64,000 nucleotides of DNA, taken from contig NZ_UNRA01000002.1 of assembly GCF_900537075.1 (NCBI RefSeq), forward strand, positions 62,001 to 126,000, read 5' to 3'. Shown here one piece after another: positions 718 through 59,874 of this stretch. The DNA is from Tropicibacter sp. Alg240-R139 (GTDB lineage: Bacteria > Pseudomonadota > Alphaproteobacteria > Rhodobacterales > Rhodobacteraceae). The stretch's first letter is position 1. Each line of letters begins with the position of its first letter. Both the position numbers and the translations under genes were made by a program. The notes beneath the pieces were generated by a model. The model was not told the DNA's origin. It did no database searches and worked only from the letters and a program-made list of their open reading frames with translations.

Positions 718-908
718 GCTCCCGCACCCGAGCGATTCCGACGTTGTCGGCATCGCTAGCGGCTTTGGGCCGGGCGCCTCGCCTTCGGCTCGGCGCGGTC
801 CCGCTTGGGTTGACTGTTTTGCCACAAGGGCCAACCGCCGAGCGCAGCGAGGCCGAGCCCAACGGGAGGAGGTGTTTCGTCAGAAACATCGACGACGGGC
901 GGGAGTGC
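718..908 (+). repeat. Intergenic cloverleaf-like repeat, copy A (long form)
   Basis: This is a long copy (about 190 bp) of a repeat found seven times in the window. The outer stem is GCTCCCGC at the left with CGGGCGGGAG at the right. Inside are hairpin CCGACGTTGTCGG, the conserved CGCTAGCGGCTTTGGGCC, an expanded central arm, then CCCAACGGGAGGAGG and hairpin TGTTTCGTCAGAAACA. It lies between the dacA-like terminator and the thiC leader, so here between tandem genes. Together with the riboswitch and the terminator at 946 it accounts for the gene-free stretch 416-996. Confidence 0.85.
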
Positions 909-945
909 TCCGCCCCTTCACGCCACGGGCAGCCACAAAAGAAAT

Positions 946-965
946 GACCGCGGAACTCCGCGGTC
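946..965 (-). terminator. Rho-independent terminator of the D-Ala-D-Ala carboxypeptidase gene
   Basis: GACCGCGG and CCGCGGTC form a perfect 8-bp stem with a 4-base loop. On the minus strand it is followed by ATTTCTTTTG, a T-rich tract. It sits about 30 bases after the stop codon at 997. Confidence 0.8.
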
Positions 966-996
966 AAATCTTACGAGGTAGTGCTGGTGGTAATTT

Positions 997-2412
997 CTAG
1001 GATGGGCCGATCATGAAACAGGTTACGTTGCGCGCCTTGAGGCGGCGACAGGCCAGATCAGCCTGATCGCGAGTCATGCCCTGGAATGTAGCATCAAAGC
1101 CGCGTGCAGACTGATCAACTTTGCGCAGCGTGCCGTCGAGCGTTGCCATTTCTGCAAGCGCCGTGCGCAACAGGACCTTTTCGGCTTGATAGCGGTTTGT
1201 ATATCGCCCGACGTTGATGCCCCAGTGATGGCCACCGGATGTCGACAGCCGCGTAACAACTTCTTGCTCGGGTTGTGGCGGGGCTGCGGGCTCGGGCTCG
1301 GTCGATGTCAGAACCAGGTTTTCGGGTCGCAAAGCGGGGCGTGTGCCCGGTGCGGACAGTGTCGATGCCCCAACTTCGGCGATAACTTCGTTGATGCTGG
1401 CCTGAATGGTGTCTTGGTTTTGCTTCGCAGCTTCGGCCACCAATACAGCACCACCGGCGGGTCGAGACTGCGGGCGCAGGCTGGTCTTGGGTGCTCCGGC
1501 CAGGCGGATCGTCTTACCGCTGCCACCGGTCGTGGTGTTGCCTACGTAAGCAGGACGATTCGGCTTGCGGATCGGTGCGCGCGATGGGGCCCGGCGAAAG
1601 CCAAGGTCTAGCAACTCAGCCACCTTGGCGTTGCGCGACGAGCTGGACTTGCCGCCAAAGACGGTGGCGATGATCCGTTCGTTGCCCCGTTTTGCCGATG
1701 CCACAAGGTTAAAGCCTGCCGCGCGGGTATAGCCAGTTTTGATGCCGTCAGCTCCCTGATAGGCAGCCAAAAGACGGCGGTTGGTGTTGTTCACCGATTT
1801 AATTCCGGCATTCGTCGATTTGCGCGAGAAGAGGTTGTAGTACTGCGGGTAATCATACAGCAGATGCCGCCCCAGTGTGGTCATGTCGCGCGCGGTCGAC
1901 ATATGCCCGTTTTCAGTCAGGCCGTGGGCGTTCTTGAACGTTGTGCGCGTCATTCCCAGGGCTTTGGCCGTGCGTGTCATGCGGCGGGCAAATGCGGCTT
2001 CGGACCCGCTGATGGCGATGCCGATGGCGGTGGCCGCGTCGTTGGCCGACTTCACGGCGGCAGCCCGGATCAGGTACCGGAACGCGATACGCTGGCCTGA
2101 CCGCAGGCCCAACTTGGATGGCGGCTCGCTTGAGGCTTTGCTGGTGATGCGAACCTTAGTGTCGAGCGTAATCTCGCCGTTCCGCACTGCTTCAAACGCA
2201 ATGTAGAGCGTCATCATTTTGGTCAGAGATGCGGGGTGCAATCGCGTGTCAGCGTTGCGCGCGTGCAAAACTTCACCTGTGCGTGCGTCGATTACCATTG
2301 CGGCATAGGGGGCCGCTCGCGCACTGAGTGGTATCAGAACGCACAGCCAAACGGCTGCCAAAAAAATAAGGCCCAAACGGGCCGGCTTTGTACGCCGAAC
2401 CTGCACGATCAT
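997..2412 (-). CDS. D-alanyl-D-alanine carboxypeptidase (PBP5/6-like) with C-terminal SPOR-like domain
   Basis: Peptidase S11 family enzyme of 471 residues that should trim the terminal D-Ala from peptidoglycan pentapeptides in the periplasm. A signal peptide covers residues 1-33 (hydrophobic LGLIFLAAVWLCVLIPL, ending ARA). The three active-site motifs are intact: SLTK at 62-65, SAN at 122-124 and KTG at 225-227. A proline- and alanine-rich linker (about 290-390) leads to a C-terminal region (GHHWGINVGRYTNRYQAEK onward) that looks like a SPOR peptidoglycan-binding domain. This would target it to denuded septal glycan. It replaces the C-terminal amphipathic anchor of E. coli DacA. It is a single transcription unit with its own terminator. 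Confidence 0.9.
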   Translation of the reverse strand: MIVQVRRTKPARLGLIFLAAVWLCVLIPLSARAAPYAAMVIDARTGEVLHARNADTRLHPASLTKMMTLYIAFEAVRNGEITLDTKVRITSKASSEPPSKLGLRSGQRIAFRYLIRAAAVKSANDAATAIGIAISGSEAAFARRMTRTAKALGMTRTTFKNAHGLTENGHMSTARDMTTLGRHLLYDYPQYYNLFSRKSTNAGIKSVNNTNRRLLAAYQGADGIKTGYTRAAGFNLVASAKRGNERIIATVFGGKSSSSRNAKVAELLDLGFRRAPSRAPIRKPNRPAYVGNTTTGGSGKTIRLAGAPKTSLRPQSRPAGGAVLVAEAAKQNQDTIQASINEVIAEVGASTLSAPGTRPALRPENLVLTSTEPEPAAPPQPEQEVVTRLSTSGGHHWGINVGRYTNRYQAEKVLLRTALAEMATLDGTLRKVDQSARGFDATFQGMTRDQADLACRRLKARNVTCFMIGPS

Positions 2413-2621
2413 TGCCTCTGTCTGCCTCTGGTCGCCGATTTTTCGGCTGACTCATTGATTGATTGCTAGCAGGCTAGCATAGGGATTCCTCAAAATAAAC
2501 CCGCAGGTTGCAGGCAATTGTTGATTTTCAGGCAATGAGAAATCCACATATAGGGGCACCGTCGGCACAGCCCGCAACACCGGCGATTGTGGCGAGAATG
2601 AGGCGGCGGGAAGTTGCCAAA

Positions 2622-3329
2622 TCAGCTGAGCTCGCTGACAAGCGCAGGCAAGCCCCCAAGCTGCTGCAGCTCGTGAAAGCGTGACGCTTGGGCGGGCGCT
2701 TCGGCGTGTTCGATTTCCCAGGTCAGCCCGTGCGGGATATAAACGCCCCATCCGCCGGCTTGGATTGCGGGAACAACATCCGATCGCATGGAGTTGCCCA
2801 CCATCATCGCCCGTTCCGCCCCGTGACCATGGCGTGCAAAGATCGCCGCATAAGACTTGGGCGTCTTTTCGCTAAGTATCTCGACGCCATAGAACAGATC
2901 GCCTAGGCCCGATTGGGCAAGCTTGCGTTCCTGGTCCAACAAGTCACCCTTGGTGATCAGCAGAACCCGGTGCGTTTCGGCCACGGCCTTTACCGTTTCC
3001 TGAGCATGGGGCAGCAACTCGATAGGATGTGCCAGCATGTCTTGACCGGCCCCGATCAATTCGCGGATGACGGACGCGGGCACGCGATCCTCGGTCACTT
3101 CGATCGCGGTTTCGATCATCGACAGGACAAACCCCTTCACACCATATCCGTAGTGCCCGATGTTGCGGCGCTCGGCCTCCAGCAGGCGGTCGGCCAGATG
3201 GTTGGGCTCGGCATAGTCAGTCAGCAGTTCGGCAAAGCGATCCTGGGTCAAGCGAAAGAAGCGTTCGTTGTGCCACAGGGTGTCGTCGGCATCAAAACCG
3301 ACAGTGGTTAGTTTGCGATCCGTTGACAC
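2622..3329 (-). CDS. HAD-family hydrolase (phosphatase)
   Basis: A 235-residue haloacid-dehalogenase-type phosphatase. Motif I is DADDT (13-17), giving the nucleophile D13 and acid/base D15; motif II is LLITKGD, motif III a lysine in LSEKTPKSY, and motif [12 protein letters not shown]. The helical cap between motifs I and II indicates a C1-type enzyme acting on a small phosphorylated metabolite. The substrate cannot be read from the sequence. It is divergent from clpS, with the two starts about 90 bases apart. The 3' end is about 210 bases from the carboxypeptidase start, and that gap shows nothing beyond a presumed promoter. Confidence 0.85.
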
Positions 3330-3415
3330 CTGTTCGCTTTCCCTTTTCTAAACCCGACGGAAGGTTATATAAGCCACAATACCAAACCAACTCCCCAACC
3401 GGACTGTTCTGCGCG

Positions 3416-3757
3416 ATGTTGCTACAACCCTTGATGATGTCGGACAACCCAGGCGACGACAACGACACGTCGGTGATCGTCGAAACCCGACCCAAGACCA
3501 AGCGTCCACCGCTGTACAAGGTTTTGCTGCTCAACGATGACTACACTCCGATGGAGTTTGTGGTCCATGTTTTGGAACGATTTTTCGGAATGACTCACGC
3601 CGAGGCGTTTGAGATTATGTTGACGGTGCACAAAAAAGGGGTCGCCGTTGTCGGGGTCTTCAGTCACGAGATCGCCGAGACCAAGGTGGGGCAGGTGATG
3701 GATTTCGCCCGACGTCACCAGCACCCCCTGCAATGCACCATGGAACGAGAAGAGTAA
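3416..3757 (+). CDS. clpS: ATP-dependent Clp protease adaptor ClpS
   Basis: ClpS delivers N-degron substrates to ClpAP. The core ([20 protein letters not shown] and [14 protein letters not shown]) carries the N-end-rule pocket residues, including [10 protein letters not shown] and the HKKG motif. I take the ATG at 3416, giving 113 residues close to the family length; ATGs at 3434 and 3437 are also plausible. An in-frame ATG at 3323 would overlap the divergent HAD gene and would put a TATATA promoter-like box inside the gene. clpA is not next to it in this window. An RsmC-like methyltransferase follows eight bases after the stop, so the two are probably co-transcribed. Confidence 0.9.
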
Positions 3758-3765
3758 GGCCGCCG

Positions 3766-4743
3766 ATGTCTGTCCGTCTGTCTCTGGCGCTCGATTCGGG
3801 CGACCTGCTGCCGTCCGATGCAGTTTCCATTGTCATGCCGACCCCGGAACATGACCTGAGCGAACTGCCAAAAACCGCGCAGATCGTACAACCGTTCAAG
3901 CCCTTCCACGATCATTTTCAGGGGCAGGGGTTTCCCTGCGCACCAAACAGCGATGATCCGTGCGATCTGGCCGTCGTGTTCGTGCCGCGCGCCAAGGCGC
4001 TGGCGCGGGATCTGGTTGCACGGGCCAGCCAACGGTGTTCGGGTTGGATCGTGGTGGACGGTGCCAAGACAGATGGCATCGACAGCCTGTTTAAGGACAT
4101 CCGCAAACGCGTTGCCGTTTCCGGGCCAATTTCCAAAGCGCATGGCAAGATTTTTTGGTTTCGGGCGCAAGAGGCGGATTTCGCTGACTGGCGGGCACCT
4201 GAGGGGCAGGTCGTTGACGGATTTCAAACCGCGCCGGGTGTCTTTTCAGCTGACGGAATTGACCCGGCCTCGGCGCTATTGGCGCAAGCATTGCCCGACA
4301 AACTGGGCCGCCGTGTGCTCGATCTGGGTGCCGGGTGGGGGTATCTTTCAGCGCAGGTGCTGAAAAACGCCAAGGTCGAACAGCTTGATCTGGTCGAGGC
4401 TGATCATGCCGCGCTGACCTGTGCCCGTGCCAATGTCACAGACCCGCGCGCGCGATTTCATTGGGCGGATGCGCAAAGCTGGACCGCCGCAGAACCTGTG
4501 GACATGATCATAACCAACCCGCCGTTTCATACCTCTCGCGCAGCCGATCCCGCCCTTGGGCGCGCATTCATCGCCACGGCCGCACGCGTTCTGGCCCCAT
4601 CAGGGCAGTTGTGGTTGGTGGCCAACCGGCACCTACCGTACGAGACCGCGCTCGCAGAGCTTTTTGGGCAGGTCAAAGAAGTGGCCGGCGACAACCGCTT
4701 CAAAATCTTGCAGGCAACACGACCTGCTCGCGCGCGGCGTTGA
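3766..4743 (+). CDS. Class I SAM methyltransferase, RsmC-like (16S rRNA m2G1207)
   Basis: Length 325 residues, like E. coli RsmC (343). The N-terminal half is the degenerate duplicated methyltransferase domain typical of RsmC. The C-terminal half carries the SAM loop LDLGAGWGY (about 185-193) and the catalytic NPPFH (251-255), the signature of guanine-N2 methyltransferases. RsmC methylates G1207 of the small-subunit rRNA in the assembled 30S particle. I choose the ATG at 3766 (AAGG just upstream), not the in-frame ATG at 3733 inside clpS. The N-terminal half is more divergent than the C-terminal half, so RlmG-like specificity cannot be excluded. Confidence 0.75.
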   Translation: MSVRLSLALDSGDLLPSDAVSIVMPTPEHDLSELPKTAQIVQPFKPFHDHFQGQGFPCAPNSDDPCDLAVVFVPRAKALARDLVARASQRCSGWIVVDGAKTDGIDSLFKDIRKRVAVSGPISKAHGKIFWFRAQEADFADWRAPEGQVVDGFQTAPGVFSADGIDPASALLAQALPDKLGRRVLDLGAGWGYLSAQVLKNAKVEQLDLVEADHAALTCARANVTDPRARFHWADAQSWTAAEPVDMIITNPPFHTSRAADPALGRAFIATAARVLAPSGQLWLVANRHLPYETALAELFGQVKEVAGDNRFKILQATRPARARR

Positions 4744-4779
4744 TCGCCGTTAACGTGTGTCGAAATCAGGAGGATTCGC

Positions 4780-5580
4780 ATGTCCTTTTCCATAGCAGGC
4801 AAAACCGCAATCATTACGGGCGCCGCAAACGGCATCGGTCTGGCCATTGGACGCCATTTTGCCGATGTGGGCGCAAATGTGATGTTCGCCGACATGGACG
4901 AGAAAAGTTTGGTCAGTGAGTTAGGCGAACAAGCGGACGAAGGGAACGTGCGCTATTTCGCAGGTGATCTACGCGAAAAACTGACGATCGCCAACCTGCT
5001 CTCGGCAACGCTGGACGCCTTTGACCAGATCGACGTTCTGGTGAACGGCGCGCGCCAGGTGGCACCCTCAGATCCGTTGGATGCGGATGATGCATCGGTC
5101 CGGACCTTGTTGGATCAGAACCTGTTCCCGGCGCTGCGGCTCAGTCAGCTTGTATCCAATCGGATGATCAAACAGGTCGAGGATCAGGACGATGGCACTG
5201 CCGGGTCGATCATCAACCTGTCGTCGATTGCCGCGCGACGCACTCATCCCGAATTGCTTGGGTACTCTGTGTCATCAGCCGCTTTGGATCAGATGACCCG
5301 TTCGCTGGCCGTGGCGCTGGCACCCAATCGTATCCGGGTGAATTCCATCGCGCTTGGGTCCGTAATGAGCGCCTCGCTGCAGAGCGCGCTCAAGGACAAT
5401 CGTGACGCGCGCACCGATATCGAAAAGCACACGCCACTGTCGCGGATTGCCTCACCGACTGAACTGACCGAAACAGCGCAGTATCTGGCGTCCGACGCAT
5501 CCGCGTTCATGACTGGTCAGATACTGACGCTCGATGGGGGGCGCACATTGCTCGACCCCGTCGGCGCCGCCGCACATTAA
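4780..5580 (+). CDS. SDR-family oxidoreductase lacking the catalytic lysine
   Basis: A 266-residue Rossmann-fold short-chain dehydrogenase-like protein. The cofactor motif TGAANGIG (13-20) is intact, and N114, S149 and Y162 of the usual tetrad are in place. The YxxxK motif reads YSVSS, so the lysine is replaced by serine at 166. The NNAG motif reads VNGA. Without the lysine, classical hydride chemistry is doubtful; the protein may bind NAD(P) in a structural or regulatory role, or use another proton relay. AGGAGG lies upstream of the ATG. The stop is only three bases before hemF, so it is surely co-transcribed with it, but no link to heme synthesis is established. Confidence 0.8.
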   Translation: MSFSIAGKTAIITGAANGIGLAIGRHFADVGANVMFADMDEKSLVSELGEQADEGNVRYFAGDLREKLTIANLLSATLDAFDQIDVLVNGARQVAPSDPLDADDASVRTLLDQNLFPALRLSQLVSNRMIKQVEDQDDGTAGSIINLSSIAARRTHPELLGYSVSSAALDQMTRSLAVALAPNRIRVNSIALGSVMSASLQSALKDNRDARTDIEKHTPLSRIASPTELTETAQYLASDASAFMTGQILTLDGGRTLLDPVGAAAH

Positions 5581-5583
5581 GAA

Positions 5584-6477
5584 ATGAGCCTCATGTTCGA
5601 GACAGAGAAAACCACCGCTTCCACTTGGTTCCGCAGCCTGCGCGATGAGATTGTTGCCCGGTTTGAGGCGCTGGAAGCGAGTCACACCAATGGCCCGTTT
5701 TCCGAGATGGAACCCGGCCAATTCGAAGTAACCCCAACCCGGCGTACAGCTGATGATGGGTCCGACGCAGGTGGCGGGTTGATGTCCGTCATGCGCGGCG
5801 GGCGTGTGTTCGAGAAGGTCGGTGTCAATGTCTCTGAAGTGCACGGCACGCTGGGGGAACGTGCACAAGCCTCCATGGCCGCACGCAAGGGCATACCGGG
5901 CATGAAAGAAGATCCGCGGTTTTGGGCCAGCGGGATCTCTTTGGTGGCGCATATGCGCAACCCGCATGTGCCTGCGGTCCACATGAACACGCGCATGTTC
6001 TGGACCCCGCATGCCTGGTGGTTTGGTGGAGGGTCGGACCTGAACCCCTGTCTTGAGTACGACGAGGATACCGCACATTTCCACGCTGAACAGAAGCGTC
6101 ACCTTGATCTTCATGGGCTGGCACATTATCCGCGGCTCAAGCAGTGGGCTGACGAATACTTCTATATCCCGCACCGCAAACGCGCGCGGGGCGTGGGTGG
6201 TATTTTCATGGATGACTATTGCACCGGTGACTGGCAGGCTGATTTTGAGCTGACCCAAGATATCGGACGAGCTTTCCTGCCAGCATTTGTGCCGCTTATA
6301 GAACGTCGGCTTGAGATGGCGTTTGGCGCGGCCGACAAAGATGCACAGCTGGTGCACCGGGGGCTCTATGCCGAATATAACCTGGTCTATGATCGTGGGA
6401 CGAAATTTGGCCTGGAAACGGGGCACGACCCCGATGCGGTGCTCATGAGCCTGCCGCCTATGGCAAAGTGGGTGTAA
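5584..6477 (+). CDS. hemF: Oxygen-dependent coproporphyrinogen III oxidase
   Basis: HemF decarboxylates two propionates of coproporphyrinogen III to give protoporphyrinogen IX, using O2. At 297 residues it matches E. coli HemF (299). The family signature is clear: NPHVPAVHMNTRMF, WFGGGSDLNPC, GGIFMDDY and the end MSLPPMAKWV. An ATG three codons in (5593) is an alternative start. It follows the SDR gene directly. The two other heme genes in the window, hemC and hemE, lie within 4 kb but in separate units. Repeat copy B follows its stop. Confidence 0.95.
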   Translation: MSLMFETEKTTASTWFRSLRDEIVARFEALEASHTNGPFSEMEPGQFEVTPTRRTADDGSDAGGGLMSVMRGGRVFEKVGVNVSEVHGTLGERAQASMAARKGIPGMKEDPRFWASGISLVAHMRNPHVPAVHMNTRMFWTPHAWWFGGGSDLNPCLEYDEDTAHFHAEQKRHLDLHGLAHYPRLKQWADEYFYIPHRKRARGVGGIFMDDYCTGDWQADFELTQDIGRAFLPAFVPLIERRLEMAFGAADKDAQLVHRGLYAEYNLVYDRGTKFGLETGHDPDAVLMSLPPMAKWV

Positions 6478-6533
6478 GCTCTTTCAGCTGCTTTTGGTCC
6501 GAGACTAAGTTGGGGGTAATCCGTAAAGGAGGC

Positions 6534-6663
6534 GCTCCCGTCCGTCGTCGATGTTTCTGACGAAACATCTCCTCCCGTCGGGCCGGGCACTGCGCTTTGC
6601 GCAGTGCCCGGCCCGAAGCCGCTAGCGGTGCCGACGAAGTCGGCGTCGCTCGGGTGCGGGAGC
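6534..6663 (-). repeat. Intergenic cloverleaf-like repeat, copy B (short complete form)
   Basis: A 130-bp complete short copy, inverted relative to copy A, between the convergent 3' ends of hemF and the small gene at 6687. The outer stem is GCTCCCG/CGGGAGC. Hairpins are TGTTTCGTCAGAAACA (read on minus), a central arm GGGCCGGGCACTGCGC paired with GCGCAGTGCCCGGCCC, and GCCGACTTCGTCGGC. The position suggests a two-way terminator or an mRNA 3'-end element. Confidence 0.85.
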
Positions 6664-6686
6664 TCCCCGAATTGACAGTCGAGGGT

Positions 6687-7100: not shown

Positions 7101-7205
7101 GGGTGTAACCTTTCAAAAATACTGAGTACGTGCGTCAGCAAAAGCATAACCCGAAATGAGGCTTTGGCCAGATTGCCTTCGGTATCGTGAGCGGAGTTTA
7201 TTGGC

Positions 7206-8150: not shown

Positions 8151-8231
8151 GGTTGGTCCTCCTCCGTCTTAGACGGTTCCAACACATGCACATTGTGTCA
8201 AATTGGGCGCGGCGTCACAACAAAAGTGACG

Positions 8232-18217: not shown

Positions 18218-20092
18218 ATGACCGACGCGCACAGCCCAACCGACGAAGCCACGCCCACCGGATATGCCTGTATTCAGGGGTATCTGAAGACATTGGACAA
18301 TTCCCCTGGCGTCTATCGGATGCTCGATGCCGATAGCCGCGTGCTCTACGTCGGCAAGGCACGTAACCTCAAGGCGCGGGTATCCAACTATTCCCGCCCA
18401 GGCCATTCGGGCCGGATCGAGCGCATGATCGCAGCGACCGCATCAATGATGTTTCTGACCACACGTACAGAAACCGAGGCGCTGCTGTTGGAACAGAATC
18501 TGATCAAGCAGCTCAAGCCCAAGTACAACGTGCTGCTGCGCGATGACAAAAGCTTTCCCAATATTCTGGTGGCCAAAGATCACGCCTTTCCCCAGATCAA
18601 AAAACACCGCGGTGCCAAAAAGCAAAAGGGCGCCTATTTCGGCCCCTTTGCCAGTGCGGGGGCTGTGAATCGCACACTCAATCAGCTGCAAAAGGCGTTC
18701 CTGCTGCGCAATTGCTCGGATTCCATGTTCGAAAGCCGCACGCGGCCCTGTCTGCTTTTTCAGATCAAACGCTGTTCGGGATCTTGTGTCGGGCTTATTT
18801 CGGAAGAGGCGTATGCTGAAAGCGTCAAGGACGCCGAACGGTTCTTGTCGGGCCGTTCGACCAAAGTACAAGAGGAGCTGGCCGAGCAGATGACGGCAGC
18901 GTCCGAGGCGATGGAGTTCGAACGTGCCGCCGGGCTGCGTGACCGCATTCGGGCTCTGACCCAGGTACAGTCGAACCAGGGCATAAACCCGCGCGGCGTG
19001 ACCGAGGCAGATGTGATCGGTCTGTACATGGACAGCGGGCAGGCTTGTGTTCAGGTGTTTTTCATTCGGGCCAATCAGAATTGGGGTAACCGCGATTTCT
19101 ATCCTCGTGTTGGTCCGGATGTGTCGCCGGCCGAGGCAATGGAAGCGTTCCTTGGCCAGTTCTATGACAACAAGGAACCGCCCCGGCAGTTGATTCTATC
19201 CGATGCCATTGAAAACGCTGATCTGATGCAAGAAGCGTTGTCTGAGAAGGCGGGTCGTAAAGTTGATATTCTGGTACCACAGCGGGGCGAAAAACAGGAG
19301 CTGGTGGCTGGCGCTCTGCGAAACGCACGCGAGTCGCTGGCCCGGCGCATGTCAGAAAGCGCGACGCAGGCCAAATTGCTGCGTGGATTGGCCGAGGCGC
19401 TTGATCTGGAAGGACCGCCAGGCCGGATTGAGGTCTACGACAACTCGCACATCCAGGGCACCAACGCGGTAGGGGGTATGATCGTGGCTGGCCCCGAGGG
19501 GTGGATGAAGAACTCTTATCGCAAATTCAACATCAAAGGCGATGATCTGACTCCTGGTGATGACTTCGGTATGATGAAAGAAGTGCTGCATCGTCGTTTC
19601 ACCCGTTTGTTGAAAGAAGACCCGGATCGAGACAAGGGGCTGTGGCCAGATCTGTTGTTGATCGACGGCGGCGCAGGGCAGGTGAGTGCAGTGCATGAGA
19701 TCATGGTGCAGCACGGAGTCGAGGACATCCCTATGGTCGGTGTCGCTAAGGGTGTTGATCGAGATCACGGTAAAGAAGAATTCCACCGCGTGGGCCAGCG
19801 CCCTTTCGCGCTGCAACGCAACGATCCGGTGCTCTATTTCATCCAACGCCTACGGGACGAGGCGCACCGGTTCGCCATCGGCACACACCGCGCCAAACGT
19901 GCGAAAGCTATCGGCGCCACGCCACTGGATGAAGTGCCAGGTGTTGGTGCAACGCGCAAACGCGCTTTGCTGACCCATTTCGGGAGCGCCAAAGCTGTGA
20001 GCCGCGCAAACCTGTCTGACCTAAAAGCCGTTGACGGTGTTTCGGACGCATTGGCCGAAACGATTTACGACTTTTTTCACGACAAGGGCTAG
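18218..20092 (+). CDS. uvrC: Excinuclease ABC subunit C
   Basis: UvrC makes both incisions in nucleotide excision repair. It has 624 residues. In order: the GIY-YIG nuclease domain ([20 protein letters not shown], about 28-48), a cysteine-rich segment ([15 protein letters not shown] near 190), the UVR UvrB-binding motif (near 225-260), the RNase H-like C-terminal nuclease with [21 protein letters not shown] and [16 protein letters not shown], and C-terminal helix-hairpin-helix repeats ([23 protein letters not shown]). All expected parts are intact. uvrA and uvrB are not nearby, as usual. Confidence 0.97.
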
Positions 20093-20126
20093 TCACCTGC
20101 GCGGCCTTGCGTCCTGCGGACGGCGG

Positions 20127-20213
20127 GGGCCAGGCTCATGCGGGCTTTGCCCGCATGAGCCTGGCCCAACGGGAGGAGACGTCCCGCCAGGGATGCCGAC
20201 GACGGGCGGGAGC
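20127..20213 (+). repeat. Intergenic cloverleaf-like repeat, copy C (right half only)
   Basis: Only the central arm and right part of the repeat are present. The central arm is a perfect 19-bp stem with a three-base TTT loop (left arm 20127-20145, right arm 20149-20167). It is followed by CCCAACGGGAGGAG, a variant hairpin GTCCCGCCAGGGA, and GACGACGGGCGGGAGC. It lies between the convergent uvrC and EamA genes. Confidence 0.8.
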
Positions 20214-20233
20214 GCTTTGAGGTCGTTTCAGTT

Positions 20234-22629: not shown

Positions 22630-22760
22630 TGACTGATGGTCTGGATAACTTGATCGGTGTCTTGTCGACCACTTCCTGGCGTTGACCTCACGAGAATCCT
22701 TTGAGGGCCATATCAGAACGAGTCGGGCTTTGTCACGATAGCTACCAGGCTTGGATCGAG

Positions 22761-22833
22761 CGCCGAGCGCAGCGAGGCCCGGCCCAACGGGAGGAGGTGT
22801 TTCGTCAGAAACACCGACGACGGGCGGGAGAGC
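22761..22833 (+). repeat. Intergenic cloverleaf-like repeat, copy D (right part of a long form)
   Basis: It begins at CGCCGAGCGCAGCGAGG, the inner sequence otherwise seen only in long copies A and F. It continues with GGCCCAACGGGAGGAGG, the hairpin TGTTTCGTCAGAAACA and CGACGACGGGCGGGAG. The left half is missing. It lies between the convergent moaE and the small gene at 22893. Confidence 0.8.
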
Positions 22834-49526: not shown

Positions 49527-49602
49527 GCTCCCGCCGGTCGAGCAGGCATCAAAGATGCCTTCCTCCCGTTGGGCCGGGCGCCTCGCTGACGCGAGGCGAG
49601 GC
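49527..49602 (-). repeat. Intergenic cloverleaf-like repeat, copy E (right half, divergent)
   Basis: Read on minus: GCCTCGC and GCGAGGC pair as a shortened central arm, then CCCGGCCCAACGGGAGGA, then an altered hairpin AGGCATCTTTGATGCCT, then GGCGGGAGC. This hairpin has a different sequence from other copies but still pairs. It lies between two genes of the same direction (DUF6173 and the GDPD gene). The rest of 49483-49773 shows only the GDPD promoter region, with AAGGGAG before the GTG start. Confidence 0.75.
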
Positions 49603-49773
49603 ACCGCAGAACGTGAAGGTGGCGCTTTAAAGTCGCGTAGAATGGGCTGTGCTCAAGCGCCAGAAGATTTCGGGTCTGGCAAAGGCTAAGGTTGGAAAGC
49701 AGTCGGCATTCTGACGCCCCCTTGCCTTGTGCCGTTTCCCATCGTTCAATGGCTGCATTGAAGGGAGTTTTTC

Positions 49774-52367: not shown

Positions 52368-52377
52368 CCTGATTGCG

Positions 52378-53016: not shown

Positions 53017-53080
53017 TCACCTCTATTTGGCGGTACGAAACCCCTTTGTTGCCATGATGAACCAGGGCTGGATTCACAAA

Positions 53081-53267
53081 GCTCCCGCACCCGAGCGATC
53101 CCGACTTTGTCGGCATAGCTAGCGGCTTTGGGCTCGGCGCCGGGCAAAGCCCGGCGCGGTTCCACCTGGGGCGCCTGTTTCGCGACAATCGCCAATCACC
53201 GAGCGGAGCGAGGCTGGGCCCAACTGGATGAGGTGTCCCGATAGGGACATCGACAACGGGCGGGAGC
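53081..53267 (+). repeat. Intergenic cloverleaf-like repeat, copy F (long form)
   Basis: A 187-bp complete long copy. The outer stem is GCTCCCGC/GCGGGAGC. Hairpins are CCGACTTTGTCGG, a central arm with CGCCGGGCAAAGCCCGGCG, and TGTCCCGATAGGGACA. The inner piece CTGTTTCGCGACAATCGCC matches copy A. It fills the gap 53017-53317 between the convergent lipoprotein and azlD genes, where I see nothing else. Confidence 0.85.
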
Positions 53268-53317
53268 CCCCCGGGCTCGTAGACATGAAATCGTCGGAAA
53301 ACTGCGTCAAACGCAGT

Positions 53318-53650: not shown

Positions 53651-54363
53651 GCCTGCGCCTTTCTGCGGTCCAACATCACCTCGGCCTGCGCGCCCGCCAT
53701 CATGCCGATACACCCGGCGATCAGCAGCCCTAGATTATAGGGCACCACCGTGGTCAAAAGCGCCACAACAATGGCTACCAAAGCCGCGATCATATGGGGC
53801 AGAGTGCGCAGCATCGGCCCCAGCATCGCCAGAAACGTAACTGGCAGCGCAAAATCCAACGCCCAGCTGTCCGGGATTTGCGTGCCGAGCACCGCACCCA
53901 GATAAGTGCACAGATACCAAAGCGGCGCGATCGGAGAGATCGAGCCAAAGAAATAGGCCATCCTTTGCGGCACCGTCATGTCCGGCTCTTTCTCGAACTG
54001 CACGGTCGAGCAGGCATAGGATTGATCCACTACGAAATAGGCCGCCACTGATCGTTGCCATAGGGGCGCACCACCCAGGTAGGGAGTTAACGCCGCCGAA
54101 TACATCGCCACCCGCAAGTTCACAGCCAAAGCCGATGCCAACACGATCAGGGTCGGTGTCTCTTCTTGCAACAGCTGAAGCGCTGTGAACTGCGCAGCGC
54201 CAGCAAACACCGTGGCAGTGAAGGTCATGGTCTGCACGATGTTCAGCCCCGCCTCGGTCGCCAGCACGCCAAACAGGGTGCCAAAGGGGATCGCCACCAG
54301 CACAAAGGGCGAGCCGTCGCGAAAGCCTTTCCAGTAAAAGGAATTCGATGTGGTGAATGCCAT
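53647..54363 (-). CDS. AzlC-family branched-chain amino acid exporter
   Basis: A 238-residue inner-membrane protein with about six hydrophobic spans and family stretches PFGTLFGVLATEAGL, TATVFAGAAQFTALQLL and WQRSVAAYFVVDQSYA. It works with AzlD to export branched-chain amino acids or analogues. It is divergent from fdhD with about 50 bases between the starts. Confidence 0.88.
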   Translation of the reverse strand: MAFTTSNSFYWKGFRDGSPFVLVAIPFGTLFGVLATEAGLNIVQTMTFTATVFAGAAQFTALQLLQEETPTLIVLASALAVNLRVAMYSAALTPYLGGAPLWQRSVAAYFVVDQSYACSTVQFEKEPDMTVPQRMAYFFGSISPIAPLWYLCTYLGAVLGTQIPDSWALDFALPVTFLAMLGPMLRTLPHMIAALVAIVVALLTTVVPYNLGLLIAGCIGMMAGAQAEVMLDRRKAQA

Positions 54364-54412
54364 GCGGAAATCCTAAGTTAAGCGCGAAACAGGTAACGGG
54401 CTTGGGGAAGGG

Positions 54413-55306
54413 TTGCAATTGGCTATTCGGGACGATTTGTCGGACTATATCATCGCCCCCGACCCGGGCGCGGCGCGGCTGACCCGCGCGGTCGAAGGGT
54501 TCGACCAAAACGGGCAGGCCACGCAGATCTCCGTGGTCGAGGAGCGGCCGCTGACGATTTTCCTTAACAGTCAGGAAATCGTCACGGCGATGACCATAGG
54601 CGATTACCCCGAATACCTTGCTCTTGGGTTTTTGCGCAATCAAGGCATGTTGCTACCCGACGATGTGATCACTGGCACCGACTATGACGATGAATTGGAA
54701 ACCGTCGTTGTCCGAACTGAACGCGAGACGTCTTACGAGGAAAAGCTCAAGAAAAAGACCCGTACTTCTGGCTGCGCCGTTGGGACGGTGTTCGGCGACA
54801 TGATGGAGGGGTTAGAGGACGTGCGCTTGCCCGCCGTGTCTGTGCGCACATCGTGGCTCTATGACCTGTCCGCGAAAATCAATCGCACCCCGTCGCTGTA
54901 CCTGGAAGCCGGGGCCATCCATGGCACGGTGCTGTGTCGAGAAAACCATCCGCTGGTCTACATGGAAGACGTTGGGCGCCACAACGCGGTCGACAAAATC
55001 GCGGGGTGGATGCTGTCAACCGATGAGGAGGCTGAGGACAAGATCCTCTACACCACCGGGCGGCTGACCTCCGAAATGGTGATCAAAACTGCGATGATGG
55101 GCATCCCCGTGCTGGCCTCGCGATCCGGGTTTACCGCCTGGGGCGTCGAGATCGCCCGCGAGGTTGGGCTGACCCTGATCGGCCGGATGCGTGGCCAGCG
55201 GTTTGTGTGCCTGTCCGGCGAAGATCGTTTGGTTCGTGACATCGATCCATCCAGCGTCCCGGTTGAGGACAAGAAGCATCGTCGCAAGAGTGCGAAGCAT
55301 TCATGA
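54413..55306 (+). CDS. fdhD: Formate dehydrogenase accessory sulfurtransferase FdhD
   Basis: FdhD passes sulfur from IscS to the molybdenum cofactor of formate dehydrogenase. The 297-residue protein has NSQEIVTAMTIGDYPEYLAL, the active-site cysteine C121 in TSGCAVGTVFGD, and the cofactor-binding HNAVDKIAGW, with MEDVGRHNA just before. The usual CxxC reads CAVG, so only the first cysteine remains. The start is TTG at 54413 or 54419 after GGGGAAGG; no ATG fits. It begins the molybdenum-cofactor operon. Confidence 0.9.
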   Translation: MQLAIRDDLSDYIIAPDPGAARLTRAVEGFDQNGQATQISVVEERPLTIFLNSQEIVTAMTIGDYPEYLALGFLRNQGMLLPDDVITGTDYDDELETVVVRTERETSYEEKLKKKTRTSGCAVGTVFGDMMEGLEDVRLPAVSVRTSWLYDLSAKINRTPSLYLEAGAIHGTVLCRENHPLVYMEDVGRHNAVDKIAGWMLSTDEEAEDKILYTTGRLTSEMVIKTAMMGIPVLASRSGFTAWGVEIAREVGLTLIGRMRGQRFVCLSGEDRLVRDIDPSSVPVEDKKHRRKSAKHS

Positions 55307-55656
55307 GTGATGTGTACATTCTGGCGTTGGCATTCTTTGCGCCAACCTTATCTTTGGGCGCCTTGGGTCTTTGGTTCACTCTCCGCTATCTGCATCCGTT
55401 TTTGCGTGAACTCAGTGCAGCGCCATGGAGCCGGGGTTTAATGTGTAGAGTGCTCTTTGCCGGTGTCGTCAACGCCGAGTCCGAGCAGGTCGCACAGCTT
55501 CAGAGAATCCGAGGGACTTATGCTGGGCTGATTGGGCTGATGATGCTGATTGCGGCGTTTTTTATGGGCCTTGGGGCGGTTGTGTTTTTCGGTGTATTAC
55601 TCGGCCTCAATTTTTTGATGGCGCGGCCCTTTGATGTGGCGGAGGCAAACAAATGA
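55303..55656 (+). CDS. Small hypothetical membrane protein
   Basis: A 117-residue protein with two pairs of hydrophobic spans (about 5-30, LALAFFAPTLSLGALGLWF, and 74-105, LIGLMMLIAAFFMGLGAVVF). The C-terminus is VAEANK, the same last residues as the next protein. The ATG overlaps the fdhD stop by four bases. Function unknown. It stands between fdhD and mobA, where related genomes are expected to have them adjacent. Codon use is slightly more A+T-rich than fdhD. Confidence 0.65.
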   Translation: MSDVYILALAFFAPTLSLGALGLWFTLRYLHPFLRELSAAPWSRGLMCRVLFAGVVNAESEQVAQLQRIRGTYAGLIGLMMLIAAFFMGLGAVVFFGVLLGLNFLMARPFDVAEANK

Positions 55657-55660
55657 CCAA
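55642..55660 (+). repeat. 19-bp direct repeat, left copy
   Basis: GAGGCAAACAAATGACCAA occurs here and again at 56177-56195 as a perfect 19-base direct repeat, 535 bases apart. At the right copy the ATG is the start of mobA. At the left copy the ATG opens only an 18-codon frame (55653-55709) that overlaps the next gene by four bases (ATGA). The pattern suggests a tandem duplication or an insertion that duplicated the mobA start. Confidence 0.85.
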
Positions 55661-55705
55661 CCCATTCAGATCGACCTTGACCAAAGATCGCGGGGGGTTT
55701 GAACG

Positions 55706-56191
55706 ATGACAAACCTGATTATCGAAACGCTTATTCATGTAATTGCTCTGGGCGCATTTTTGTTTGCATTTTATAGCCTAGGACGTGCCGCTGAATTGCA
55801 ACGCGTCTTGTTCGCGTTGATGAAAGAGTGTTCTAAGTTAGAGCTAGAGCGATTTGGATGGGCAGGTGACCAAGGCAAGGACAAGCTGTTTTCACTCTCA
55901 CGCATGAAGCGAAACCGAGCACGAAATCGCTTGGTGCTGCGGCTGCTTTTTTGGGGCGTGCCAAACGGGCTTGATCATTCACAAATGGCTTTGGACGTGT
56001 TGCAGCGGTGGAGATCTGCGTTTGGGCTAGCCTTTGTTGCGTTGTCGGTTTCAGCTTGCGCTTGGATTTCAACGCTGGGCGCTCTCGCTATGCAATTTGG
56101 TTTCATACCGATCGTTATTTTTGTGCTGAGCACGGCGCTTGCTATTATTGCTCTGCGCCCTTGGTCCTGGAAGTCAGAGGCAAACAAATGA
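55706..56191 (+). CDS. Hypothetical membrane protein
   Basis: A 161-residue protein. Hydrophobic spans lie at about 6-26 (ETLIHVIALGAFLFAFYSL) and 108-155 (AFGLAFVALSVSACAWISTL, FIPIVIFVLSTALAIIAL). A basic cytoplasmic middle (about 60-95, LSRMKRNRARNRLVLRLLF) separates them. It ends with SEANK, like the protein before. The stop overlaps the mobA start by four bases. No known function. It lies wholly inside the segment bracketed by the 19-bp direct repeat. Confidence 0.65.
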   Translation: MTNLIIETLIHVIALGAFLFAFYSLGRAAELQRVLFALMKECSKLELERFGWAGDQGKDKLFSLSRMKRNRARNRLVLRLLFWGVPNGLDHSQMALDVLQRWRSAFGLAFVALSVSACAWISTLGALAMQFGFIPIVIFVLSTALAIIALRPWSWKSEANK

Positions 56192-56195
56192 CCAA
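56177..56195 (+). repeat. 19-bp direct repeat, right copy (mobA start)
   Basis: Second perfect copy of GAGGCAAACAAATGACCAA. It supplies the ribosome-binding region and ATG of mobA (56188). See the left copy at 55642. Confidence 0.85.
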
Positions 56196-56784
56196 ACCTC
56201 TCGGAGTGATCTTGGCCGGCGGCCAAGCCCGTCGGATGGGGGGGGGCGACAAGGGCGCGTTGATCCTGGGCGGGCGCAGCCTGCTGGATCGGGTGATTGA
56301 CCGATTGGGGCCGCAGGTGGATCGTCTTGTGCTCAACGCCAATGGCGATGCGGCGCGGTTCATGGAATACGGCCTGCCGGTGATCTCGGACAGCCTGCCG
56401 GATTACCCCGGCCCGCTCGCAGGTGTGCTGGCGGGGATGGACTACGCTGCTGACCAAGACTTTACCCACATCATCACCGCCGCCGCCGACACGCCCTTTT
56501 TCCCAGAAGACCTGGCCGAACGTCTGACCCGCGCCGCAGACAGGGCCAATACCCCGATTGCGCTGGCCGCCACGCATGAAGACGGGCGAATGAACCGGCA
56601 CCCGACCTTTGGCCTTTGGCCGGTTAATCTGCGCGCCGACTTGCGAGCTGCTCTTGAGGACGGGCTGCGCAAGGTGGTGCTCTGGACTGATAAACATGGC
56701 GCGGCCTCGGCCCCTTTTGATGACAACGCCTTTTTCAATATCAACACGCCCGAAGACCTGGCGAAGGCCGAGACGATGCTATGA
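56188..56784 (+). CDS. mobA: Molybdenum cofactor guanylyltransferase MobA
   Basis: MobA links GMP to Mo-molybdopterin to make the MGD cofactor used by formate dehydrogenase and DMSO-reductase-type enzymes. The 198-residue protein has the nucleotidyltransferase motif LAGGQARRMGGGDKG and the later DNAFFNINTPEDLAKAE. It starts at ATG 56188; longer frames into the preceding gene are rejected. mobB overlaps it by four bases. Confidence 0.93.
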   Translation: MTKPLGVILAGGQARRMGGGDKGALILGGRSLLDRVIDRLGPQVDRLVLNANGDAARFMEYGLPVISDSLPDYPGPLAGVLAGMDYAADQDFTHIITAAADTPFFPEDLAERLTRAADRANTPIALAATHEDGRMNRHPTFGLWPVNLRADLRAALEDGLRKVVLWTDKHGAASAPFDDNAFFNINTPEDLAKAETML

Positions 56785-57272
56785 AGATCTATGGTGTCAC
56801 GGGCTGGAAGAACTCCGGCAAAACCGGGTTGGTGGAGCGGTTGGTGACCGAGTTCACCGCGCGCGGGCTGAGCGTTTCAACCATCAAGCATTCGCATCAC
56901 AGCGCGGATGTGGATCACCCTGGCACCGACAGCCACCGGCACCGGCAGGCTGGCGCGCAAGAGGTGGTGCTGGCTTCTTCTTTGAGGGTGGCGATCATGC
57001 AAGAACTGCGCGGTGCGTCCGAACCGCCCCTGGCCGAGTTGCTGGGGCGGCTCAATCCGGTCGAACTCGTGTTGATCGAGGGCTACAAACGCGAGGCGCA
57101 TCCCAAGGTCGAGGCGTTTCGCGCTGCCTCGGGCAACGACTTGATCGCGCCGGATGATCCAACAATCCGGGCGGTGGCCAGTGATATGCCGCTGGATTTG
57201 AACCGTCCTGTCTTTGATCTGGACGACACCGCTGCGATTGCCGATTTTATCGCGCAAGAGATCGGACTGTGA
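56781..57272 (+). CDS. mobB: Molybdopterin-guanine dinucleotide biosynthesis adaptor MobB
   Basis: A 163-residue P-loop GTP-binding protein that assists MobA. The Walker A motif is GWKNSGKTGL near the N-terminus, with IKHSHHSADVDHPGTDS and LVLIEGYKREAHPKVE as further family stretches. It overlaps both neighbours by four bases (ATGA and GTGA), so mobA, mobB and the next gene are coupled. Confidence 0.93.
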   Translation: MKIYGVTGWKNSGKTGLVERLVTEFTARGLSVSTIKHSHHSADVDHPGTDSHRHRQAGAQEVVLASSLRVAIMQELRGASEPPLAELLGRLNPVELVLIEGYKREAHPKVEAFRAASGNDLIAPDDPTIRAVASDMPLDLNRPVFDLDDTAAIADFIAQEIGL

Positions 57273-58141
57273 GGCCGTTCGACACGGTTCTGATGGTTGA
57301 TTGGTCAGCCGGGCAACGCCGCCCGGTGAAACCCACTAAAGACGCAATCTGGATTGGCATCGCGCGGGCGGGGCGGTCAGAAGAGCCAGTATACTGCCGC
57401 AACCGGCAAGAGGCAGAGGCGTGGTTGGTTGATGTCTTTGATGCAGAAACAGCCGCAGGTCGCCGTGTGTTCGCAGGCTTTGATTTTCCCTTTGGCTATC
57501 CAAAAGGGTTCGCGCGCCATATCACCGGATCGGACGATCCCTTTGTGTTGTGGGATTGGCTCGAAGAGGGGATCGAAGACGATGAAAAGGGTATTAATAA
57601 TCGCTTCGAGGTTGCCGCACAGATGAACCAGCTGTTTGATGGGCCGGGGCCGTTCTGGGGCAAGCCGCACAAAGACCGATGGCCGGATGTCCCTTATGTT
57701 AAACAGGGCATCCCCTTTGATCAGGTGGCCGAGCGCCGCTCGGCCGATCTGGCGGCCAAGGCGGCGTCGAGCTGTTTTCAACTGTTCTACAATCCCACCG
57801 TGGGCAGCCAGATCCTGATGGGCCTGCCGGTTCTGACGCGCCTGCGCAGGCGCGGAGATGTCGCTGTCTGGCCGTTCGAAAACCATGATGACGCTGGTAT
57901 CGTGATGGCCGAGGTTTGGCCGGGTCTGATCGAACCTGCGGTCAAGCAGGCGATGCAAGACACATCGAAGGAAGAAATCCGCGACCGGGTTCAGGTTCGA
58001 TTGCTCAGCCGGGCGATCTCCTTGCTTGAGATCAAAGAGTTCGGCACATTGATGGCGCAGGTTCCTAAGGTGGCCAAAGAAGAGGCTTGGATTTTTGGAA
58101 TCGGCCATACGGACCGTTTGAATGAACTGGCGCTGCATTAG
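57269..58141 (+). CDS. DUF429-like protein in the molybdenum-cofactor operon
   Basis: A 290-residue protein starting at GTG with GTGA overlap to mobB. The N-terminus (FDTVLMVDWSAGQRRPVKP) and GFDFPFGYPKGFA suggest an RNase-H-like fold of the DUF429 group. Conserved acidic residues D10 (VDWS) and D in FDFPFG could be catalytic. Such proteins in Rhodobacteraceae are often annotated loosely as molybdopterin-guanine dinucleotide synthesis, only because of their position. Actual function is unknown. moeA follows directly after its stop. Confidence 0.75.
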   Translation: MRPFDTVLMVDWSAGQRRPVKPTKDAIWIGIARAGRSEEPVYCRNRQEAEAWLVDVFDAETAAGRRVFAGFDFPFGYPKGFARHITGSDDPFVLWDWLEEGIEDDEKGINNRFEVAAQMNQLFDGPGPFWGKPHKDRWPDVPYVKQGIPFDQVAERRSADLAAKAASSCFQLFYNPTVGSQILMGLPVLTRLRRRGDVAVWPFENHDDAGIVMAEVWPGLIEPAVKQAMQDTSKEEIRDRVQVRLLSRAISLLEIKEFGTLMAQVPKVAKEEAWIFGIGHTDRLNELALH

Positions 58142-59401
58142 ATGACTGACCTGAACCCTCCGCCCCTGCGGAATGACTGTTTCGCGTTACCCGCAGGTGT
58201 GAACTGGACGCCGGTGGACGAGGCTTTGGTGTTGTTGCGTGATCGGTTGGCCCCTGTGACTGCAGTCGAAGAGGTGGCGATCGGCAACGCTTTGGGCCGT
58301 ATTCTGGCCCAGGACGTTGCCGCGCTGCGATCCAACCCGCCACAGGCCAATTCTGCGGTGGACGGTTATGGTTTTGCAGGGGCTATCTCCGAAGGCACTC
58401 ATGTCTTGCCATTGTTGCAGGGACGCGCGGCGGCCGGAGTACCCTATGCCGGTGTTGTGCCTTCTGGGGCTGCGATACGGATTCTGACGGGCGCGGCTCT
58501 ACCCAACGGCGTTGACACTGTGATCCTTGAAGAGGACGTGAACGCCCAAGACGGCCAAATTGCTTTTAACGGCCCGCTGAAACAAGGCGCCAACGCGCGC
58601 AAGGCAGGCGAGGATGTAGTGGCGGGAAAAATCGTTCTGACATTGGGGCGTGTCCTGACGCCTGCCGACTTGGCTCTGCTGTCGGCGGTCGGAGTATCTC
58701 GTGTGCAGGTGCGCAAGCCGCTGCGTGTTGCGGTCATTTCGACCGGGGATGAGCTGGTCGAGCCCGGCCAGCCTGCAGGGGTGGGACAAATATTTGACGC
58801 AAACCGCCCCATGCTTCTTGCGATGGCGCGCCGGTTTGGGGCAGTCACCATTGATATGGGGCGGATTGCTGACGATCGCGCCGCGTTGCGTGCAGCCCTA
58901 GACAGTGCAGCTGAACAGGCGGATGTCATCCTGACCAGCGGTGGGGCTTCGGCGGGGGACGAGGATCATGTCTCGGCTTTGTTGACCGAAGCAGGTGCGA
59001 TGCAGGAATGGCGTATCGCTGTAAAGCCTGGGCGCCCTTTGGCCTTGGGTATGTGGCAGGGCGCACCGGTTTTTGGACTGCCCGGAAATCCCGTTGCGGC
59101 GATGGTCTGCACTTTGGTTTTCGCGCGACCCGCGATGGCGCTTTTGGCAGGAGCGGGTTGGGATGACCCTCAGGGCTTCCTACTCCCGGCAGCGTTCGAA
59201 AAGCGCAAGAAGCCGGGACGGCGGGAATACCTACGAGGTCGTATTCGTGAGGGCCGGGTCGAGGCCTTTAAGTCCGAAGGTTCGGGCCGAATCAGTGGCC
59301 TCAGCTGGGCCGAGGGCCTGATTGAAATCCAAGACGGCGCCCGTCATATCCAGCCTGGCGATCCCGTGAGGTTTATTCCGTTTTCCAGCTTTGGGCTGTA
59401 A
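58142..59401 (+). CDS. moeA: Molybdopterin molybdotransferase MoeA
   Basis: MoeA inserts molybdate into adenylated molybdopterin. The 419-residue protein has the domain pattern of the family: SAVDGYGFA near residue 75, TGDELVEPGQPAGVGQIFDA, LTSGGASAGDEDHV and the end GLPGNPVAAMVC. A second cofactor-maturation step, guanylylation by MobA/MobB, is encoded just upstream, so the operon covers late molybdenum-cofactor steps and FdhD-dependent sulfuration. Confidence 0.95.
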   Translation: MTDLNPPPLRNDCFALPAGVNWTPVDEALVLLRDRLAPVTAVEEVAIGNALGRILAQDVAALRSNPPQANSAVDGYGFAGAISEGTHVLPLLQGRAAAGVPYAGVVPSGAAIRILTGAALPNGVDTVILEEDVNAQDGQIAFNGPLKQGANARKAGEDVVAGKIVLTLGRVLTPADLALLSAVGVSRVQVRKPLRVAVISTGDELVEPGQPAGVGQIFDANRPMLLAMARRFGAVTIDMGRIADDRAALRAALDSAAEQADVILTSGGASAGDEDHVSALLTEAGAMQEWRIAVKPGRPLALGMWQGAPVFGLPGNPVAAMVCTLVFARPAMALLAGAGWDDPQGFLLPAAFEKRKKPGRREYLRGRIREGRVEAFKSEGSGRISGLSWAEGLIEIQDGARHIQPGDPVRFIPFSSFGL

Positions 59402-59519
59402 TCCATGGCTGTGTGGGTCGGGCATGGTTTTCAAGAGATAGAGAGCGATCACCTGACCAGGTTCAAGACGGCACGTGGTGGATTGGTTGGCGCAGGGATG
59501 TCGGTTGTGGCGCAGGCCG

Positions 59520-59765
59520 ATGGATGGTCTGCTGTTGGCGCGACTCGAACGAGACGTGCAGCAGGAGGTGTTTCACTTGGATGTGATTGAGGCCACCCCA
59601 CGGGCGCAAGCCCTGTCCGCGCGAGTGGAATTCATCGTGACGAAACACGAAGCATTGGGTCCTTTGCAGTATTCTTTGGAATTTGAGGCTGCTTGCCGCA
59701 TGACGAAGCGAATGATCCGAGAAGGTGATTTCGGTAGAGGGGCTGCTCCCGCCCGTTGTCGATGA
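59520..59765 (+). CDS. Uncertain small ORF
   Basis: A frame of 81 residues from an ATG at 59520 (an earlier GTG or ATG would add 15). The stretch LLARLERDVQQEVFHLDVIE and HEALGPLQYSLEFEAACRMT looks protein-like, but its end runs into repeat copy G, there is no convincing ribosome-binding site, and another 61-codon frame overlaps it. It may be a truncated gene. The remaining part of 59402-59957 holds repeat G and nothing else visible. Confidence 0.3.
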   Translation: MDGLLLARLERDVQQEVFHLDVIEATPRAQALSARVEFIVTKHEALGPLQYSLEFEAACRMTKRMIREGDFGRGAAPARCR

Positions 59766-59874
59766 TCCTGAGGGGACATCTCCTCCCGTTGGGCCGGGCA
59801 TTGCGCGTTGCGCAATGCCCGGCCCAAAGCCGCTAGCGGTGCCGACGAAGTCGGGATCGCTCGGGTGCGGGAGC
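59745..59874 (-). repeat. Intergenic cloverleaf-like repeat, copy G (short complete form)
   Basis: A 130-bp complete short copy, same orientation and length as copy B. The central arm is GGGCCGGGCATTGCGC paired with GCGCAATGCCCGGCCC (loop AAC); the first hairpin reads CGACTTCGTCGG-like on minus, and the conserved GCTAGCGGC is present. The third hairpin (GTCCCCTCAGGATC) is imperfect. It lies between the convergent moeA side and the gene at 59958. Confidence 0.85.

Follow-up and report, generated by a model that had tools for sequence, protein, structure and literature searches.

Whether structured intergenic repeats serve their bacterial host, and whether they are kept or only tolerated, is an old open question for repeats of the repetitive extragenic palindromic (REP) type. 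The same question is posed by a repeat family in a 64,000-nt stretch of the Tropicibacter sp. Alg240-R139 genome (4.66 Mb in 14 contigs), which comprises contig C2:62001-126000 and will be denoted as the window. Seven copies of the repeat, A to G, lie in it, and the combination of kept sites with changing occupants, strand-specific pairing and four syntenic species offers a direct means of telling function from tolerance. The reading favored here, with a probability of roughly 0.52 and drawn from sequence comparison, is that a family-specific, REP-dimer-like element acts as a bidirectional 3′ boundary of transcripts.

Copy number and architecture

Copies were searched with two covariance models, R1 with 132 positions and R2 with 52 positions covering the right-hand module; 150 candidates were scored with each, and the counts are lower bounds. 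At least 117 matches to R1 and at least 131 to R2 are found in the genome, the latter including two weak ones (E about 6e-4) and one that corresponds to the left half, inverted, of a further copy (L196). A pattern search finds 77 exact CCCAACGGGAGGAG cores. The original prediction had described a family of seven copies; all seven are present in the window, by direct inspection as well as by the covariance models, and the number is far too low for the genome.

Full elements mostly measure 120-245 nt and have a variable middle. In class I the order of parts is GCTCCCGCACCC, hairpin P2, TTGGGCC, the middle, GGCCCAACGGGAGGAG, hairpin P4 and CGACGACGGGCGGGAGC. The middle is a near-perfect hairpin in the short form (about 132 nt) and an arm together with a sequence-variable spacer in the long form (mostly about 185-245 nt). 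The right module is 47-55 nt long, with conserved unpaired linkers flanking its hairpin on both sides. By loose motif rules, 115 copies of this genome divide into 70 of class I, 12 of class II (marked by the 5′ hairpin GCGTCCTGCGGACGGC), 11 of class III (marked by TTCTGCGGTG), 14 with the right module only and eight with the left module only.

When read outward, both halves are alike and follow the scheme GGCCCAA, linker, hairpin, GGG-(N)-GCGGGAGC. Among 26 loci searched, the left half matches the inverted right-module model in L196 (38.9 bits) and L148 (29.3 bits), and four more left halves match weakly (13-16 bits, E 0.02-0.11). The full element thus resembles two modules in inverted arrangement with a spacer between them, a reading that for the class I copies of the genus is based on the general likeness of both halves. 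Left modules that stop abruptly and are followed by no right module are seen at L192, L198, L200 and L205; left halves that are broken or stand alone thus persist as well. The long copies L083 (G000:C7:34233-34463) and L080 (G000:C4:132360-132590), located on separate contigs, are, apart from two N in L080, identical over the element with its variable spacer and over the 91 nt upstream of it; the sequences part beyond the right end, which suggests a duplication ending at the element.

Placement relative to genes

Genes were called by codon usage, with a caller trained on 27 open reading frames (ORFs) of the window. The placement sample consists of the 115 copies of this genome, to which window copies C, D and E do not belong; three could not be assigned to a type of gap, and the other 112 lie in convergent (72), tandem (37) or divergent gaps (3). 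Convergent arrangement is found in 12 of 174 other gene pairs, counted in the window and the element loci with the element gaps left out, and in 8 of 58 when all pairs of the window are counted, these gaps included. The excess of convergent copies has a p value below 1e-30 against either background, and five of the eight convergent pairs in the window hold a copy. In convergent gaps the element lies at median distances of 29 and 32 nt from the stop codons on either side; copies in tandem gaps are located nearer to the 3′ end of one gene than to the start of the next.

In other genera the same gene caller, after removal of the false matches L232 and L233 and with five loci yielding no module, places 14 of 26 copies in convergent gaps and one in a divergent gap. 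On plasmid pQS-2 of Parasedimentitalea psychrophila the element is situated between convergently annotated coding sequences, 39 and 30 nt from their ends, and on plasmid pW43D of P. marina it lies between the same two genes, annotated in both plasmids as DUF4384 and caspase-family proteins. Along contig C1 the strands of the copies are mixed, as judged by eye, and a chromosome-polarity motif was therefore rejected.

Conservation of sites and change of occupants

Three sister species (G001-G003) share synteny with the window, in blocks of 78-87% DNA identity and with diverged intergenic flanks and spacer. All four species carry an element at sites B, D, E and F; at site D both halves are present in G002 and G003, and a left module with an altered right half in G001. 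The element is found in two species at sites A and C, where the remaining species have an unmapped or replaced gap. Site G holds a half-element in G001 and no element in G002 and G003, where the gap is too diverged for a target duplication to be read. No new or lineage-specific site is found by R1 and R2 in the syntenic stretches of the relatives at places where the window lacks one.

Outside the window, 37 of 44 element loci of the relatives map by both flanks to an element gap of this genome and seven are unmapped; these loci were fetched only for holding an element, and two pairs overlap, leaving 35 of 42 distinct stretches. As the element loci of this genome amount to at most 356,520 of 4,655,854 bases, about 8% would be expected to map.

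The occupants of kept sites often differ in class and stem sequence. At site B the three relatives carry a different type of element, with a GGCATC stem in place of the TGTTTC stem of this genome; at 13 short-form sites of this genome a short relative copy is found only once, the others being long or half forms; and the direction is inverted at two of 28 compared sites (L003, L043). Right modules are 83.1% identical between orthologous copies (40 pairs), 79.2% between random pairs of own and relative copies and 84.7% within the genome, so that orthologues are slightly closer than random pairs (p 0.03) and no closer than paralogues. The site is kept and its occupant often changed.

These data bear on the main rival explanation, namely a selfish repeat similar to REPs or to miniature inverted-repeat transposable elements, which would have no host function, would be copied by some enzyme or by gene conversion and would survive wherever it disrupted nothing. 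The reshuffling of modules into classes I, II and III, left-only and right-only forms, the likeness of right modules within the genome and the changed forms at the short-form sites are all in keeping with such a repeat, as is its patchy occurrence in the family (R2 matches in at least 60 of 394 genomes and at least 59 of 393 genera, no more than 14 candidates having been scored in each genome). Matches to the Y1_Tnp domain (PF01797) are found in four of 20 element-rich genomes (G010, G018, G295, G342) and in none of 15 without an R2 match, numbers too small to tell; this genome, its three sisters and 12 further element-rich genomes show none. A selfish repeat accords poorly with sites that are kept across species while their flanks and spacer diverged, with the lack of lineage-specific sites in three syntenic comparisons, and with its rarity on plasmids (a short-form query matches 4 of 72,556 records) and absence from phages (0 of 50,697, one query). 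We consider a tolerated selfish repeat rather unlikely.

Covariation and strand preference

The claim that paired changes in the hairpins indicate selection on pairing is supported by two alignments, in figures that are not clean probabilities, since the copies share ancestry and also served to derive the structure. Among 39 class I copies 92.5% of the pair cells are standard and 97 cells are changed on both sides, compared with 25.2 in shuffles (0 of 500 reach the observed value). For 48 right modules, including those of other genera, the P4 score is 0.724 versus 0.278 when shuffled (0 of 500), and sliding the partners abolishes this signal. The number of pairs with any two-sided change, a weaker measure, is not special on the 48 right modules (73 of 500 shuffles). 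At the same place in the right module stems as unlike as TGTTTC/GAAACA, GGCATC/GATGCC, GGTCTC/GAGACC and CGGATT/AATCCG are encountered, which is hard to explain without pairing. The changes are compensatory insofar as pairing is kept, but several affect the entire stem in copies that share a site, which looks like a single swap and not like stepwise double changes.

The hairpins also differ in the strand on which G·U pairs are tolerated. On the + strand, P4 contains 127 G·U versus 12 A·C cells (198 of 202 distinct modules), with the outermost and innermost pairs left out and the excess partly due to one G·U common to the commonest stem. P2, counted with a filtered pattern in 102 of 110 distinct copies, contains 37 A·C versus 5 G·U cells (29 versus 5 without pair 20-36), so that G·U falls on the − strand, and P3 is neutral (5 G·U, 4 A·C); the cells are not independent of each other. 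A mutation bias behind this signal was rejected, since unpaired base changes in 30 short copies run the opposite way, albeit in small numbers (left part C>T 14, G>A 3; right part G>A 9, C>T 1).

Tolerance of G·U on the + strand in P4 and on the − strand in P2 argues for two outward-facing hairpin modules and not for one cloverleaf. The single cloverleaf fold first proposed is therefore doubtful, also in view of the variable mid-spacer of the long form and the common half-elements; the pattern is most simply read as both halves folding as single strands, each in its outward direction.

The same signature bears on a site acting at the DNA level, in which CGGGAG copies and extrudable hairpins would be bound by a topology or nucleoid protein and would absorb supercoils between convergent genes. 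Bacterial interspersed mosaic elements (BIMEs) of E. coli are bound by gyrase and other proteins, and the palindromic architecture, the three occurrences of CGGGAG or its complement in class I (alignment A3) and an orientation independent of gene direction, inverted at the two sites mentioned above, would suit a site of this kind. Stem sequences that vary with pairing kept, together with a preference for G·U over A·C on a defined strand of each hairpin, point instead to a folded single strand and render a DNA-level site improbable.

A folded strand could also belong to a family of independently transcribed small RNAs, as the long conserved fold with unpaired conserved motifs might suggest. Many copies carry on the − strand CCTCCTCCC, a motif of Rhodobacter CcsR RNAs; it is missing from many rows of alignment A5, and an anti-Shine-Dalgarno or CcsR-like motif was rejected since it is not kept in many copies. 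As placement tracks the 3′ ends of genes, and as some 131 similar small RNA genes would be unusual, this explanation is highly improbable.

A possible bidirectional 3′ boundary

A role as 3′ boundary is the best account of the family in view of where the copies lie, the conservation of their sites, their indifference to direction, the outward-folding halves and the lower frequency of intrinsic terminators at gene ends with an element. In the full form two similar half-modules would face in opposite directions around a spacer or hairpin. Each of the two convergent transcripts would enter the element just past its own stop codon and exit via the half-module facing outward on its own strand, whose hairpin would fold at the distal end of the transcript. 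This structure might define the 3′ end of the mRNA by pausing or terminating RNA polymerase and/or by blocking 3′-to-5′ exonucleases, and would limit antisense read-through into the opposite gene. Rho is perhaps involved in termination, as no U-tract is conserved.

Several points weigh against such a role. In the 30 short copies TTTT is found within 12 nt of the right end in none and of the left end (− strand) in four, thus without any conserved U-tract. The deficit of terminators (present at 24 of 136 convergent gene ends that have an element and at 11 of 30 that lack one; Fisher p 0.027) is derived from a control of 15 element-free gaps and a home-made finder. The G·U/A·C bias is, in small numbers, the same for either direction of the flanking genes and is thus not tied to one mRNA, for which reason an origin of the bias on the mRNA strand was rejected. 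Copies of classes II and III and right-module-only copies (n=37) are found in 23 convergent, nine '--', three '++' and two divergent gaps, and class II alone in seven convergent, five '--', no '++' and no divergent gaps; a one-way terminator was rejected for half-elements, as these copies in tandem gaps are not oriented as it would predict. With 131 copies for what would be several hundred convergent pairs at 8 per 64 kb, many convergent gaps must be free of the element. Finally, according to PMC1590033, stem-loops of any kind favor convergent over divergent bacterial gaps, which also favors the selfish repeat, and repeats tolerated only where they are harmless would also gather in convergent gaps.

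The change of occupants at kept sites admits an extension of the boundary role, which we put forward tentatively and as less than probable. What is inherited would be the gene junction and not the sequence: selection would long keep a boundary element in a given convergent gap, its occupants being repeatedly overwritten, flipped or swapped by members of the family that spread in the genome. The repeat would then be a domesticated, exchangeable bidirectional boundary, and a dedicated factor might recognize GGCCCAA-hairpin-GGGCGGGAG on the folded strand. If confirmed, the boundary role would mean an additional, bidirectional 3′-boundary device in Rhodobacteraceae and would account for some convergent gene ends that lack a recognizable terminator.

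Copies in the window

The features of the window are listed in Table 1. R1 recovers six of the seven copies with E values from 3e-26 to 3e-6, judged not to be due to chance, although A, B, F and G sit at places or in forms used in building R1; R2 recovers all seven, with B, C, E, F and G among its training rows. The complete plan ascribed to the family is shared by A, B, F and G, whereas in C and E the common right-hand module follows other 5′ parts, and D has a decayed left half. The stems TGTTTC/GAAACA (A, B, D), TGTCCC/GGGACA (F) and GGCATC/GATGCC (E), the central arms of B and G and the long stem of C were all found as described in the original prediction.

Table 1. Copies of the element and further features in the window (window positions).
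Feature	Form	Position	Strand	Score	Gap	Parts and remarks
Copy A	long class I	717..907	+	R1 113 bits; R2 69.8 bits		right module at 856-907, preceded by left module and variable spacer
Copy B	short class I	6533..6664	-	R1 149.6 bits	convergent	perfect central hairpin in the place of the spacer
Copy C	class II	20092..20214	+	R1 45 bits; R2 71 bits	convergent	5′ hairpin GCGTCCTGCGGACGGC (20109-20124), 19-bp P3, right module 20163-20214
Copy D		about 22704..22832	+	R2 72.1 bits	convergent	right module 22781-22832 intact; left half decayed (61% to copy A)
Copy E	half-element	about 49527..49610	-	R2 51.1 bits		P3 hairpin and right module 49527-49575, stem GGCATC/GATGCC
Copy F	long class I	53080..53268	+	R1 115.5 bits	convergent	
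Copy G	short class I	59744..59875	-	R1 148.8 bits	convergent	third hairpin imperfect (TGTCCC / GGATCA)
TPP aptamer	RF00059	527-647	-	53.4 bits		upstream of a leftward ORF, adjoins copy A
Direct repeat, 41 nt	first unit	55642-55682				around GAGGCAAACAAATGACCAA, 80% identity, near ORF start
Direct repeat, 41 nt	second unit	56177-56217				around GAGGCAAACAAATGACCAA, 80% identity, near ORF start

With seven copies in 64 kb the window has about four times the mean density of the genome (at least 131 matches in 4.66 Mb). Next to copy A lies a thiamine pyrophosphate (TPP) riboswitch aptamer, whose score is just below the curated cut-off of 54.3, so that a default Rfam scan misses it. The 41-nt direct repeat perhaps represents duplicated gene starts.

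Distribution

The scan for copies elsewhere that had been proposed to check the family located them all over the genome and in numerous genera of the family. Each of the four genus genomes examined (G000-G003) carries many copies, and Falsiruegeria mediterranea and Tropicibacter sp. R16_0 are among the named relatives with the element. R2 finds none in any other family among 385 genomes of the class, apart from two matches (G489, G747) inside ORFs (351 and 358 aa) whose scores are those of coding sequence; these were dropped from the context count and presence outside the family was rejected. Of four more plasmid queries with other types of the element, two matched no record, one the same four records as the short form and one two of these. 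Mobile cargo was rejected on the rarity on plasmids and the lack of matches in phages with one query.

Rfam yields nothing at gathering threshold at the window elements and nothing up to E=1 in five element loci or at copy A; no family matches the repeats, and a known RNA family was rejected. In the open-access literature no paper on this repeat family was found, an entry for Rhodobacterales in the species figures of PMC3733652 being possible. The words Rhodobacter, Ruegeria and Rhodobacterales are absent from the main text of the RepRanger survey (PMC12306157).

Comparison with known systems

The repeat had been thought to correspond to no described element. Its head-to-head palindrome dimers near 3′ ends are of the REP/BIME kind, but the family falls outside the sequence definitions of REPs in PMC3733652. 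According to this source REPs occupy convergent and tandem gaps near 3′ ends and form head-to-head dimers with spacers variable in length and sequence, and the CGTC REPs of alphaproteobacteria lack a dedicated transposase; in all these respects, as well as in high copy number and intergenic location, the present family is alike. CGTC REPs are described there as palindromes of 20-40 bp, compared with the 47-55 nt of the right module, and the present family further differs in the conserved unpaired linkers that flank its hairpin and in a stem sequence that varies under pairing. A CGTC, TGTC or CCTC tag on an AT-starting stem of 8-9 bp with a 4-5 nt loop has no match in the window and the three syntenic regions with up to one stem mismatch, and a canonical CGTC REP was rejected. 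The conserved CCCGTCG on the − strand is one to several nt away from the stem, and the CCA tail of CGTC REPs is not seen by eye, the − strand mostly showing CTCC/CTCCTCCC after the stem.

REP doublets forming hairpins (REPINs) and GTAG REPs resemble the family in their oppositely directed palindrome pairs and in more than 100 copies per genome. They are mobilized by the REP-associated tyrosine transposase (RAYT), a Y1_Tnp protein, whereas the four genus genomes contain no Y1_Tnp and neither module consensus shows GTAG or CTAC by eye (alignments A2, A3, A5); a RAYT-driven REP was rejected for this genome on the absence of Y1_Tnp. The rhizobial RIME/ABC elements, compared by their description in PMC2573895, are likewise alphaproteobacterial intergenic mosaics with conserved sequence and structure, and belong to another order. 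Bidirectional intrinsic terminators of convergent genes share the place and the proposed role, whereas the present family is long, multi-hairpin and strongly conserved in sequence, and no U-tract is conserved at the ends of the 30 short copies. In the wide sense the family has the features of REPs, being made of high-copy intergenic palindromes, predominantly convergent or tandem in placement, and of head-to-head dimers with a variable spacer, the left half being an inverted right-type module in some copies. It is no member by the GTAG/RAYT or CGTC-REP tests, yet it works like REP/BIME dimers.

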